64,000 bases of DNA from contig CACHSA010000001.1 of the NCBI GenBank assembly GCA_902582405.1, forward strand, positions 1-64,000, read 5' to 3'. The first letter of the stretch is position 1; the number at the start of each line of letters is the position of its first letter. Under the pieces are notes generated by a model. The model was not told where the DNA came from, ran no database searches, and saw nothing but the letters and a program-made list of their open reading frames with translations. Shown in pieces: positions 56,679-61,861 of this stretch. Source of the DNA: an uncultured Bacteroidota bacterium (lineage in GTDB: Bacteria > Bacteroidota > Bacteroidia > Flavobacteriales > Flavobacteriaceae). The translations under genes and the position numbers were made by a program.

Positions 56679-58687
56679 GACAGATATAAGATGATTTTTT
56701 TATTATAATCTACTTTTGAACCCCATTTTATCGATTGATTAAAAACTTTTCCTTCACCTTTAAGAATAAATTTTAAACCAATCCTTTCAAGAATTAAGAT
56801 CGCATCCATTGCAGGTAATCCTATTAAATTTGGAATAACAATAGGTTTATTTTTAATTATTTTTTTTGTCACTTCATAATTATTAAAAAAGTTACGTTGG
56901 GAATTATTATTTTTTAGAATTAAGTTTTTTGGAGATCTAAAAAATAGTTTTTCTGCTATCTCTTTAAATACAGGAGCTGCAACTTCACCCCCATAATAAC
57001 CGATTTTTTTGTCAGGTTTATTAATAACTACAATACATGAATATTCTGGCTCTTCGTAAGGAAAGTAACCAACAAAACTGGAAACATACTGAGTTTCTTC
57101 AGACGTGTAGTCTATTTGTGAAGTTCCTGTCTTTCCAGCCATATTTAATTGACTGCTTTTAATTCTATATCCTGTTCCCCATTTTTTGTCAATAACATTG
57201 AACATCATTCGTTGAACTTTTTTCAATGTTGTTTCTGAGCAAACAGATGGATTTAAAATTTTTTTATTATAATTTTTAATAGCAGATGAACCAGGATTTT
57301 TTATTTTATAAATAAAACGTGGTTTAACTATTTCCCCTTCATTAGCGATACCATTATAAAATGATAGGATTTGTAATGGTGTTAATTTAATTCCATAACC
57401 AAATGACATCCACGGTAGAGAAATTCCACTCCAGTTTTTATCTCCAGGATAAGGAATCATTGGTTTACCTTCTCCATTAATACTTAAACCTAAAATATCA
57501 TTTAGACCCATATTGTAGAGTCTGTCAACAAATTTTTTTGGATCATTTTTGAAATTTTCATAAACCATTTTCACCACTCCAGTATTAGAGGATACTTCAA
57601 ATGCTTTGGAGGGTTTTAATTTTCCATAACCTCCTTTTTTTGAATCACGGACTTTATATTTTTCGTAAAAGGTTATTTCACCATTTTTTGTATCGATCAA
57701 CCTATTACTTACTCGACTGTCATTTTCTAATGTTGCTATTACAGACATTAATTTAAATGTTGATCCTGGTTCCTGCGACTCTGCAACTGCATAGTTAAAT
57801 TTTTCATAATATTTTCCGTTTTTGGTTTTAGAAAGATTAACAATAGCTTTGATTTCTCCCGAGTTTGTTTCCATTACAACAGCACAACCATGATCTGCTT
57901 TATACTTTTCCAACTGACGTAAAAGTGCATGGTGAGTAATATCTTGGATGTTAACATTTATAGTTGAGTAAATATCATATCCCTGGGTTGGTTCTTTCTC
58001 ATTATTATCGTTAATTGGTTTCCATTGTCCGTTTGCTATTTTTTGTTTTAGCCTTTGACCCGTTTGACCTTTCAAAAAATGACTAAACGCTCCCTCCATT
58101 CCAACTCTTATGTAGTGCCCAGAAGGATCTTTTTTCTCGTAGCCAATTGTCCTTTCACAAATTTTACCCATAGGGTTTTGTCTAACTTCTTTTGACTCGA
58201 CTACGAGGCCCCCTCTGAGTGATGGCTGATTAAAAAGAGGTAATTCTTTAATTTGTTTGTAATCAGAATAACTTAAATTTTTAGAAATTAAAAGATATCT
58301 ATTGCCATCTTTTCTTGCCTTTCTCAATACATCTAGGTAGTAGTCATTTTTTTTTCCTAAAATTTTAGAAAGGCCATTGGAAAGAGCTGTTTTGTGTTTT
58401 TCAAAATTTGATTCTGATGGGACCCTTGAATCCCATCTAATTTCATATCGGGGAGTTGTTGTTGCTAATAAACTATTATCATCTGAATATATATTACCTC
58501 TGCTAGGTTCTAAAATAAAGTTTTTAATTGTATTGTTTTGTGAGATACCCCTATAGTAATCTCCTTCTTTAATCTGTATATATAACAATTTAGCAATTAA
58601 AATAAATGCAAAAAAAACAATAAAAACAAGAGATAAGTAGTACCTAAACATTATTCTTTTTTCTATTGATTTCACTACTTTTTCCAT
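56675..58687 (-). CDS. ftsI: Penicillin-binding protein, division transpeptidase with C-terminal PASTA-like domain
   Basis: ESQEPGSTFKLMSVIATL, VSSNTGVVKM, MAGKTGTSQID; C-term IVIPNLIGLPAMDAILILERIGLKFIL. Confidence 0.95.
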   Translation of the reverse strand: MEKVVKSIEKRIMFRYYLSLVFIVFFAFILIAKLLYIQIKEGDYYRGISQNNTIKNFILEPSRGNIYSDDNSLLATTTPRYEIRWDSRVPSESNFEKHKTALSNGLSKILGKKNDYYLDVLRKARKDGNRYLLISKNLSYSDYKQIKELPLFNQPSLRGGLVVESKEVRQNPMGKICERTIGYEKKDPSGHYIRVGMEGAFSHFLKGQTGQRLKQKIANGQWKPINDNNEKEPTQGYDIYSTINVNIQDITHHALLRQLEKYKADHGCAVVMETNSGEIKAIVNLSKTKNGKYYEKFNYAVAESQEPGSTFKLMSVIATLENDSRVSNRLIDTKNGEITFYEKYKVRDSKKGGYGKLKPSKAFEVSSNTGVVKMVYENFKNDPKKFVDRLYNMGLNDILGLSINGEGKPMIPYPGDKNWSGISLPWMSFGYGIKLTPLQILSFYNGIANEGEIVKPRFIYKIKNPGSSAIKNYNKKILNPSVCSETTLKKVQRMMFNVIDKKWGTGYRIKSSQLNMAGKTGTSQIDYTSEETQYVSSFVGYFPYEEPEYSCIVVINKPDKKIGYYGGEVAAPVFKEIAEKLFFRSPKNLILKNNNSQRNFFNNYEVTKKIIKNKPIVIPNLIGLPAMDAILILERIGLKFILKGEGKVFNQSIKWGSKVDYNKKIILYLS

Positions 58688-58983
58688 TTAAGTTTTATAG
58701 GCTGTTCTTTGGATGGACCAACTCCAACACTTAATAATTTTTTAGAAACACTGGTTTCCAATTTTAAAAACATTAATTGAGATTTGTTCTCAACAAATTT
58801 GCTTTTTACACGTTTTAAGTCATTATTCAAATTGGCTATGTGATAAATTTTTTTGTCCGCACTGTGGCCACTCGCAATTGAAATCATTGCCAGAATTGAA
58901 ATAAATAAAAGGATTCTCCAATTTTTAATCGAATCCTGATTTAGTAAAAATTCAATATTTAATAGAGATATAATATTTTTCAT
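58675..58983 (-). CDS. FtsL-like cell division protein
   Basis: Small single-TM protein between rsmH and ftsI. Confidence 0.8.
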   Translation of the reverse strand: MKNIISLLNIEFLLNQDSIKNWRILLFISILAMISIASGHSADKKIYHIANLNNDLKRVKSKFVENKSQLMFLKLETSVSKKLLSVGVGPSKEQPIKLKWKK

Positions 58984-59891
58984 AGTTTTTCAGCGACTCT
59001 CATCTTCGCACTTCTAGCCCTTTTGTTTTTTTTTATTTCATCAAAATCAGGAGTTGTCAAACCTCCTATTTTTTTAAATGGTTTTTCAACATTTCCAAAA
59101 AAGTCCCTATTATCTTTATTGTCAAATGAACCTCCTCTAATAAAGTTTTTTACAAGTCTGTCTTCTAAAGAATGATAAGAAATACATACAATTCTTCCTT
59201 TAATTTTTAATATTTCTGATGCTTGAATTAACAATAATTTTATAGCTTCTAATTCGTTATTAACCTCTATTCTTATCGATTGGAATATCTTTGCGAGAGT
59301 CTTATATTTTGTATTTTTTTTGAGAGAATTATCCAATATTTTTACAAGTTCATTTGTAGATTTTATTGGTTTTACTTTTCTATGGTATAATATTGTTTTT
59401 ACAATTTTTTTCGGTTGATTTACTTCTCCATATTCCTTTAATATTCTAAATAATTTTTTTTCATCGTAATCATTAACTACATTTTGCGCAGTTAATTTTG
59501 ACCCTACATTCATCCTCATATCTAAGGGTCCATCATTCATAATAGAAAAACCTCTTGATGGAATTTCTAATTGATGGGAAGAAACACCAAAATCTGCAAT
59601 TATTCCATCTACTTGAAAAATTTTAAGATGGTTTAAATATTTTTTTAAATGCATAAAATTGGAATTTATAAAGAAAAATCTGTCGTCTTTTATTAAGTTT
59701 TTCTTTGAATCTAGATCTTGGTCAAATGCGAAAAGCTTCCCCCTTTTAGACAATTTACATAAGACTCCCTTTGAGTGTCCCCCTCCTCCATAAGTCGCAT
59801 CTACATATATTCCACTTGGATTAGTTACAAGTGCAAAAGTTGATTTTTCTAGTAAGACTGGATTATGATAAAGTGTATTATTCATTTTCAT
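58980..59891 (-). CDS. rsmH: 16S rRNA (cytosine1402-N4)-methyltransferase
   Basis: YVDATYGGGGHSKGVL, GIIADFGVSSHQLEIPSRGFSIMNDGPLDMRM, ISYHSLEDRLVKNF. Confidence 0.97.
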   Translation of the reverse strand: MKMNNTLYHNPVLLEKSTFALVTNPSGIYVDATYGGGGHSKGVLCKLSKRGKLFAFDQDLDSKKNLIKDDRFFFINSNFMHLKKYLNHLKIFQVDGIIADFGVSSHQLEIPSRGFSIMNDGPLDMRMNVGSKLTAQNVVNDYDEKKLFRILKEYGEVNQPKKIVKTILYHRKVKPIKSTNELVKILDNSLKKNTKYKTLAKIFQSIRIEVNNELEAIKLLLIQASEILKIKGRIVCISYHSLEDRLVKNFIRGGSFDNKDNRDFFGNVEKPFKKIGGLTTPDFDEIKKNKRARSAKMRVAEKL

Positions 59892-60333
59892 CTCCCATTA
59901 CTTCTTCAGCTAAAGAACTAAAATCACCTTTTGCCTCATCAATTACTTCTTCATAAAGACTCTTATCCCAAATCTCAAGGATATTTACAGCTGCACTTAG
60001 AACTACATCTTTTTTAATTTGTGCGTAGGTGATAAGATCTTTAGGAATTAATAGCCTTCCATTTGTGTCTATCTCAATTTTCTTTACACCTGCGGTAAAT
60101 CGACGAATAAAATCGATATTCTTTTTATTAAAGCGGTTTAATTGATCAATTTTATTCATTACAAATTTCCACTGATCAAATGGATATAATTCTATACAAT
60201 TGTTAAACAAACCTCTTTTAATAACAAAGCCATCTTTCATTGATGAGCTAATTTGCTTTTTTAGAGCTGATGGAATTAAAATCCTTGCTTTGACATCAAT
60301 TTTACACTCGTATGTTCCAATGAAATGTTCCAA
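59878..60333 (-). CDS. mraZ: Transcriptional regulator MraZ (TTG start)
   Basis: FIGTYECKIDVKARILIPSALKKQI, GVKKIEIDTNGRLLIPKDL; first gene of the dcw cluster. Confidence 0.95.
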   Translation of the reverse strand: MEHFIGTYECKIDVKARILIPSALKKQISSSMKDGFVIKRGLFNNCIELYPFDQWKFVMNKIDQLNRFNKKNIDFIRRFTAGVKKIEIDTNGRLLIPKDLITYAQIKKDVVLSAAVNILEIWDKSLYEEVIDEAKGDFSSLAEEVMGDENE

Positions 60334-60368
60334 CTACATAATGTTTAATATAAATATAAAAGATATTT

Positions 60369-60414
60369 ACCACTTTTAACCACTTATTACCACAATGTTA
60401 ATAACTTTTACCAC
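60369..60414 (-). promoter_or_regulatory. Candidate MraZ-box array upstream of mraZ
   Basis: GTGGT direct repeats on minus strand at 60369-60373, 60379-60383, 60389-60393 (exact 10-bp phase) plus a fourth at 60410-60414. Confidence 0.75.
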
Positions 60415-60521: not shown

Positions 60522-61268
60522 TTGAAAAAAAACTATAATTATATTGAAAAAGGTGAAGGCCAGGTCATTGTTCTTTTACATGGTTTAATGGGTGGTTTGA
60601 GTAATTTTAAAGATGTTTTAAATTATTTCTCATCAAAGAATTATAAAGTTGTCATCCCTGAACTACCAATTTATAGTTTACCGCTAAAAGAAACAACCGT
60701 AACAGCTTTTTCCAACTTTTTAGAGGATTTCATAGAATATAAAAGTATTGATAACTTAATTTTATTAGGAAACTCACTGGGAGGTCATGTGGGTTTAATT
60801 TTTTCAAAAAAACATCCAAATTTAGTTAAATCACTCATATTAACAGGGAGCTCTGGATTGTATGAAAATTCAATGGGTGAAAGTTATCCCAAAAGAGAAA
60901 ATTATAATTACATCAAACAAAAAACTGAGGATGTTTTTTACAATCCAAATGTTGCTACTAAACAAATAGTAGATGAAGTTTTTGAAACTGTTAATAATAG
61001 GGAAAAACTGGTTAGAACTCTCGCAATTGCAAAAAGTGCAATAAGACATAATATGTCAAAAGAGTTACCCAACATTAAAACACCTACTCTACTTATTTGG
61101 GGGAAGAACGACTTAGTTACTCCTCCAGAAGTTGCCCTAGAATTTCAATCACTACTTCCAAACTCAGAGCTTGTATGGATTAAAAAGTGTGGCCATGCTC
61201 CAATGATGGAATACCCAAAAGAATTTAATGAGATTTTGCATAATTGGCTCAATAAAAAAAATTTTTAG
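60522..61268 (+). CDS. Alpha/beta hydrolase (TTG start)
   Basis: VIVLLHGLMGGLSNF, LLGNSLGGHVGLIF nucleophile elbow, LLIWGKNDLVTPPEV, CGHAPMMEYPKEF. Confidence 0.93.
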   Translation: MKKNYNYIEKGEGQVIVLLHGLMGGLSNFKDVLNYFSSKNYKVVIPELPIYSLPLKETTVTAFSNFLEDFIEYKSIDNLILLGNSLGGHVGLIFSKKHPNLVKSLILTGSSGLYENSMGESYPKRENYNYIKQKTEDVFYNPNVATKQIVDEVFETVNNREKLVRTLAIAKSAIRHNMSKELPNIKTPTLLIWGKNDLVTPPEVALEFQSLLPNSELVWIKKCGHAPMMEYPKEFNEILHNWLNKKNF

Positions 61269-61273
61269 TTAAT

Positions 61274-61861
61274 ATGAATGCTCTAAAAGCTGAGTTCGTC
61301 TCGAGTAGTCCTAACGTGAAAAACTGCCCAGACGAATTAATCCCAGAGTACGTTTTTATTGGCCGATCCAATGTTGGGAAATCATCTTTAATAAACTCAA
61401 TTTGTAAAAGAAAACATCTAGCTAAAACTTCAGGAAAACCTGGGAAGACTCAACTAATCAATCACTTCAAGATCAATGATAGCTTGTATCTAACTGATTT
61501 ACCAGGTTATGGATATGCTAACTTATCTAAAACATCAAAAAAAAATATTGATAACTTAATCAGAGACTATTTTTTATATAGAAAACAAATTCATATGATT
61601 TTTGTAATTATAGACATTAGGCACGATCCGCTTGAGATTGACTTAAACTTTATGTCTTGGCTTATCTATATGGAAATGAAATTTTCAGTCATTTTTTCTA
61701 AATGTGACAAATTAAAAAAGGGAAGTACTAATGCTGAAAAATATATGTTAGAACTAACCAACAAATTAAATAATACTCCAAAATACTTTATAACCTCATC
61801 GAAAAATAAAGAAGGTATAGACAAAGTTTTAGCTCACATTACTAATAAAAGTTATAGTTGA
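61274..61861 (+). CDS. engB: Ribosome biogenesis GTP-binding protein YihA/YsxC/EngB
   Basis: EYVFIGRSNVGKSSLINSI, KTSGKPGKTQLINHF, LTDLPGYGYA, FSKCDKL. Confidence 0.96.
   Translation: MNALKAEFVSSSPNVKNCPDELIPEYVFIGRSNVGKSSLINSICKRKHLAKTSGKPGKTQLINHFKINDSLYLTDLPGYGYANLSKTSKKNIDNLIRDYFLYRKQIHMIFVIIDIRHDPLEIDLNFMSWLIYMEMKFSVIFSKCDKLKKGSTNAEKYMLELTNKLNNTPKYFITSSKNKEGIDKVLAHITNKSYS

Follow-up and report, generated by a model that had tools for sequence, protein, structure and literature searches.

The window, a stretch of 64,000 nucleotides from an uncultured Flavobacteriaceae bacterium (assembly GCA_902582405.1, contig CACHSA010000001.1, positions 1 to 64,000), carries on its minus strand the gene mraZ as the first gene of the dcw operon, followed by rsmH and then by an FtsL_2 gene. 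In front of mraZ, positions 60414-60369 of the minus strand read GTGGTAAAAGTTATTAACATTGTGGTAATAAGTGGTTAAAAGTGGT and carry four GTGGT boxes. The features of the locus, all on the minus strand, are:

58675-58983, minus strand: ftsL-like gene (Pfam FtsL_2, E=1.2e-30)
58980-59891, minus strand: rsmH (mraW) (Pfam Methyltransf_5, E=1.3e-84)
59878-60333, minus strand: mraZ, TTG start (Pfam MraZ, E=2.6e-26; NCBIfam TIGR00242, above its cut-off)
60351-60358, minus strand: TATATTTA, presumed -7 element of the promoter (TAnnTTTG type), at a distance of 15 bp from the box 3 start
60369-60373, minus strand: predicted MraZ box 3 (GTGGT), from sequence and conservation
60379-60383, minus strand: predicted MraZ box 2 (GTGGT), from sequence and conservation
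60389-60393, minus strand: predicted MraZ box 1 (GTGGT), from sequence and conservation
60396-60404, minus strand: TTATTAACA, putative DnaA-box-like or replication-regulon element, starting 11 bp 5′ of box 1
60410-60414, minus strand: predicted MraZ box 0 (GTGGT), starting 21 bp 5′ of box 1

The start-to-start spacings of boxes 0-1, 1-2 and 2-3 are 21, 10 and 10 bp, and box 3 lies 36 bp from the mraZ start with the -7-type element in between. A preliminary description of this DNA had reported four GTGGT boxes 5′ of mraZ, three of them in exact 10-bp phase, and the coordinates as well as the Pfam and NCBIfam assignment of mraZ agree with it; a conserved TTATYAACA between boxes 0 and 1 was overlooked there. 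GTGGT-N5-GTGGT matches the window twice, both times within the array, compared with 0.02 matches expected from dinucleotide shuffles, and the GTGGT triple in 10-bp phase occurs a single time in the 1.36-Mb assembly, which is about 70% complete. The solved MraZ structures 1n0e, 9qlg, 9qlr and 9sx6 align with nearly the entire protein.

The start codon of mraZ is TTG, not ATG, and stands right after an in-frame stop (ATG TAG TTG GAA CAT; window 60331-60339, minus strand). TTG is kept at the equivalent mraZ codon in close relatives (L003-L005), and rsmH reportedly influences non-AUG initiation. The divergent neighbours of mraZ (window 60522-61861, plus strand) are an alpha/beta hydrolase and an EngB/YihA-like GTPase.

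GTGG arrays upstream of mraZ and promoter geometry

For the comparison of arrays, 131 mraZ upstream regions were used, comprising 55 order-level loci, 64 further class loci and 12 named records (E. coli, Listeria, Bacillus, Monoglobus, Mesomycoplasma, Legionella, Burkholderia, Tistrella, Nonomuraea, Tsukamurella, Bacteroides and Phocaeicola). The order-level set consisted of 60 genomes, five of which were left out of the counts as they had no mraZ match. Each region was scored for GTGG at 0, 10 and 20 bp, and the threshold was set at 11 or more of 12 matches.

Arrays at this threshold were found in 52/55 order-level loci, in 55/64 class-level Bacteroidota loci and in 8/12 named records, compared with no more than 0.1% of shuffled upstream sequences; these loci are related, so that the counts are not independent, and most of the genomes are drafts. 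The array is thus kept in relatives, which the preliminary description had proposed to check. The 10-bp-phased array also precedes mraZ in E. coli, Listeria, Bacillus, relatives of Mycoplasma (Mesomycoplasma) and Actinomycetota. Chance is untenable as an explanation of the conserved arrays, and of the elements described below, because of the shuffles and of the range of families involved.

The fifth base of the box is degenerate. Over the 107 Bacteroidota arrays it is T in 176, G in 87, A in 19 and C in 9 boxes, while the E. coli boxes, read in register, are GTGGGAAATT, GTGGGGCAAA and GTGGGAATAA, with G in all three, and those of Listeria are GTGGTGCGAA, GTGGGGAGAT and GTGGTAAAGT. The preliminary description had regarded the array as a diverged, lineage-specific operator, in which GTGGT would have co-evolved with the DNA-contact residues of MraZ. 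The preference for T in Bacteroidota as against G in E. coli is in line with such co-evolution, but fifth bases are mixed within a single array in 51/107 cases, GTGGT units are present in Listeria, Bacillus and Tsukamurella too, and the same core and period recur everywhere, which makes this explanation very improbable. Covariation between the box and the contact residues of MraZ was dropped as a line of evidence, because the variable base differs inside individual promoters and the test is therefore uninformative.

Due to the common GTGG core and 10-bp period across phyla together with the degenerate fifth base, the array is regarded as a standard, near-universal type of MraZ operator rather than a lineage-specific one; it is placed for autorepression, and binding of MraZ to it is predicted. 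The earlier assignment to an MraZ operator of known architecture accordingly stands, with a conserved array at the dcw promoter, but the distinction between GTGGT and TGGGN does not, because the E. coli boxes read in register reveal one box that differs at one base and had been read in another register. Nor does TGGGN hold for Mollicutes, to which it had also been ascribed, the published motif being AAAGTG[T/G] (PMC8475190). This provides a firm comparative base: in several phyla, MraZ operators show one GTGG per 10 bp, and the fifth base of the unit is degenerate.

The additional box two turns upstream, likewise reported before, is non-random. GTGG exactly 21 bp 5′ of box 1 was found in 14/55 order-level loci, including all six loci of the window's genus, and in 4/64 class-level loci, whereas each of the other distances between 8 and 35 bp accounts for at most one order-level locus. 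Box 0 is therefore a genuine variant of the operator.

TAnnTTT(G) is the known -7 promoter type of Bacteroidota. An element of this type, scored as TAnnTTT(G/n), was found in 54 order-level loci, and in 44 of them it begins 15-16 bp downstream of the box 3 start. A generic sigma-70 scan of the region was discarded, as its scores were near chance, which is expected for Bacteroidota promoters. When the transcription start is placed at its inferred position, boxes 2 and 3 flank the expected -33 contact, so that RNA polymerase should be blocked once MraZ is bound. Such a geometry fits the repression described for E. coli and a mutant of M. genitalium, in which loss of mraZ raises the remaining dcw transcripts 4-8 fold; in M. 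genitalium, AAAGTG[T/G] boxes occur at mraZ only (PMC8475190). By analogy with these homologues we infer that MraZ binds and represses at the array of the window.

The TTATYAACA element at mraZ and at replication genes

In the 26 bp preceding box 1, TTWTYAACA was found in 48/55 order-level loci, compared with a mean of 0.24 and a maximum of 2 in shuffles, and in 40 of these 48 it stands at exactly 11 bp from box 1; at class level it was found in 36/64 loci compared with 0.26 expected. A wider search for TTWTYMACA on both strands over 70 bp gave 51/55 order-level loci (1.5 expected) and 53/64 class loci (1.9 expected); no element of this type was found in 11/64 class-level loci, which counts against the interpretation favoured below. 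It is absent from 10/10 non-Bacteroidota named records, and only the two Bacteroidales among the 12 carry one. Where families lack the A form, TTATCCACA or TTTTCCACA is often present at the mraZ promoter, usually in reverse-complement orientation and not in 10-bp phase with the GTGG boxes. Sites of the type TTATYAACA-N-GTGG away from mraZ were considered as further MraZ targets and rejected as chance matches, because the five examples fetched all lie within coding sequence.

Pairs of the 9-mer were sought in the 60 relatives as two TTWTCMACA copies within 28 bp, with genes called as simple longest ORFs and representatives of the genes behind the pairs named by Pfam and NCBIfam. Intergenic pairs with a spacing of 20-21 or of 12 bp were found before dnaB (L162, L177, L179 and L185), and also before HU (L180, L181 and L183), nrdD (L164) and nrdB (L178 and L184). 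Across about 85,000 species genomes, TTATCAACA-N11/12-TTATCAACA was found at a minimum of 118 loci, at least 76 of them in Bacteroidota and at least 65 of these intergenic, and the recurrent downstream genes among the matches listed were HU (at least 28, one labelled Pseudomonadota), dnaB (at least 11) and parA-like genes (at least 6). In the window's family, its own genome included, the pair is present in 13/13 dnaB promoters with no more than one mismatch, compared with 5-6 for the best match on the opposite strand; the pair was not found at dnaB in three genomes of other families. The dnaB promoters of the family (G000 C6 = L363, and the other dnaB loci among L364-L377) have two direct TATNAACA boxes 20-21 bp apart, and in nearly all of them an inverted TGTTNA copy follows 5-7 bp past the pair, which results in a fixed three-box arrangement. 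Within the window's genus, the HU promoter reads TTATAAACA-N11-TTAT(C/T)AACA in four genomes (G001, G004, G005 and G006).

In Bacteroidales, a TTATCAACA pair stands before a parA-like gene (L253, L263, L271, L327, L329 and L355), and chromosome segregation may be part of the same motif set.

Since 9-mer pairs precede dnaB, HU, parA and nrd genes, the element at mraZ is considered one member of a motif set of replication genes. Nothing specific on MraZ or DnaA boxes in Bacteroidota was found in the open-access literature, of which coverage was partial, nor was a regulator for the shared motif set, and the motif is provisionally regarded as novel. The element could instead belong to the MraZ site itself. 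Between boxes 0 and 1 it would then serve as a degenerate or inverted contact for the ring, or as a bendable spacer; in favour of this, the 9-mer fills the two-turn gap exactly and stands in an 11-bp register relative to box 1. This explanation is improbable, given that the 9-mer is absent at the MraZ operators of 10 non-Bacteroidota, is present without box 0 in most loci and stands before dnaB, HU, parA and nrd without GTGG arrays. Judged from these patterns in the sequences, TTATYAACA is very likely bound by some dedicated regulator.

The strict consensus of the DnaA box is TT(A/T)TNCACA. The window element TTATTAACA fails it at position 6 only, with A instead of C, whereas TTATCCACA and TTTTCCACA, the TTWTCCACA form of other Bacteroidia, match it exactly; exact matches at the mraZ promoter are found only in families other than that of the window. 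TTATCAACA is one of the boxes of a linear oriC of Cyanothece protected by DnaA domain IV (PMC4674748), and TT(T/A)TCAACA has been proposed as the mollicute DnaA-box consensus in a review that itself doubts it for phytoplasmas (PMC3322544). The oriC-like clusters L287, L317 and L285 of Bacillota mix TTATCCACA and TTATCAACA; within the order, the oriC-like cluster of G048 mixes the same two forms and that of G059 has TTATCAACA. A-form and mixed clusters are represented by L182, L188, L285, L287 and L317, and the C form alone by G053.

It is possible, though rather unlikely, that the MraZ operator is as described and that TTATYAACA is bound not by DnaA but by another regulator that serves both replication and division genes in Bacteroidota. 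The dnaB pair at fixed two-turn spacing with its inverted third copy resembles a dedicated operator, and the strict DnaA consensus is unmet by TTATTAACA. Moreover, the oriC-like cluster of the order-level relative G053 is made up of TTATCCACA, yet its mraZ element is TTATTAACA, and in the 15 genomes inspected, none of TTATCAACA, TTATTAACA and TTATCCACA was found up to about 1.5 kb from dnaA. Against a different regulator stand the exact TTWTCCACA at the mraZ promoter in other families, the TTATCAACA copies inside the oriC-like clusters of Bacillota and of G048 and G059, and the content of the regulon (nrd and dnaB), which suits DnaA. On this comparison of motifs, DnaA is probably the protein that binds TTATYAACA.

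With regard to origins, the evidence for DnaA is mixed. The G053 cluster is intergenic and holds five TTATCCACA in about 170 bp (L113, C1 1941001-1941168). In the complete relative G020, the sampled GC skew has its minimum at about 889 kb, where no decisive or dense box cluster was found; the nearest candidate, a 715-bp stretch with 80% AT that separates rpiB from an rnr-like gene, lies 22 kb from this minimum (C1 911127-911842, L414) and contains four exact TTATNAACA. As a candidate origin of the family it is no more than suggestive.

A strong raw association of the DnaA residue at the RDH-x-TV position with the element form, Ala in 27/28 A-form genomes and Ser/Thr in 13/15 C-form genomes (Fisher p=0.002 with families as units, according to our own collapse), was rejected as evidence, because the tree requires only 2-3 changes, with 1-2 independent events, and history alone accounts for it.

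Proposed mechanism and comparison with known systems

The interpretation favoured here from the sequence comparisons is that the locus is, on balance, an operator-promoter of dcw for MraZ with a built-in, Bacteroidota-specific replication-regulon site, most likely for DnaA. MraZ, as a ring-like oligomer, would contact a GTGG at each helical turn, always from the same face of the DNA, and would occupy boxes 1-3 and, in the window's genus, also box 0 two turns upstream. Bound in this way, it would cover the region just 5′ of the -7 element and repress its own operon, and would thereby set a feedback ceiling on dcw transcription. TTATYAACA would be the site of a replication regulon comprising dnaB, HU, parA, nrd genes and mraZ, bound most likely by the initiator DnaA. 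At roughly -50 to -60 and abutting box 1, the bound factor may act as an activator of the promoter or compete with MraZ, and the output of division genes would thereby track the state of replication. The observed sequences, spacings, conservation, taxonomic limits and presence of the motif at replication genes are what this model builds on; MraZ binding and repression are added by analogy with homologues, DnaA as the ligand is a proposal, and its effect on the promoter could have either sign.

Of more consequence than the array itself, the added element suggests that replication (dnaB, HU, parA and nrd) and division (dcw) are joined in Bacteroidota by a motif set that spans the phylum. A wider proposal, according to which a replication-division regulon of HU, dnaB, parA, nrd and dcw in Bacteroidota is read through TTATYAACA, or TTWTCCACA in some orders, by a DnaA of lineage-shifted specificity, with the single mraZ site locked beside the MraZ array, may equally well prove right or wrong; if right, initiator and MraZ acting on one promoter would form a direct transcriptional link from the initiation of replication to septum synthesis.

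Like a DnaA box, from which it differs at position 6 alone, the 9-mer belongs to a motif found before replication and nrd genes; unlike DnaA-box sites, it is single at mraZ and in fixed register with the MraZ boxes, and an origin cluster of the TTATYAACA form is not proven in the window's family. It shares the A at position 6 with the variant boxes TT(T/A)TCAACA (PMC3322544) and TTATCAACA of Cyanothece (PMC4674748), which have been reported at origins and not within an MraZ operator.

The MraZ boxes of Mollicutes, AAAGTG[T/G] direct repeats (Fisunov et al. 2016, as cited in PMC8475190), resemble those of the window in that they are GTG-centred direct repeats at mraZ with one operator per genome. 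Box 3 of the window, AAAAGTGG, is an exact AAAGTGG match, while boxes 2 (TAAGTGG) and 1 (ATTGTGG) fit the AAA part of the motif less well; TTATYAACA was not found at the single mollicute mraZ locus examined (L153). With the MraZ boxes of the E. coli dcw promoter (Eraso et al. 2014, as cited in PMC8475190), the array shares the GTGG core, the 10-bp direct repeats and the position immediately 5′ of mraZ. It differs from them by one more box 21 bp upstream, by TTATYAACA and by the fifth base, which is mostly T in Bacteroidota and G in E. coli.
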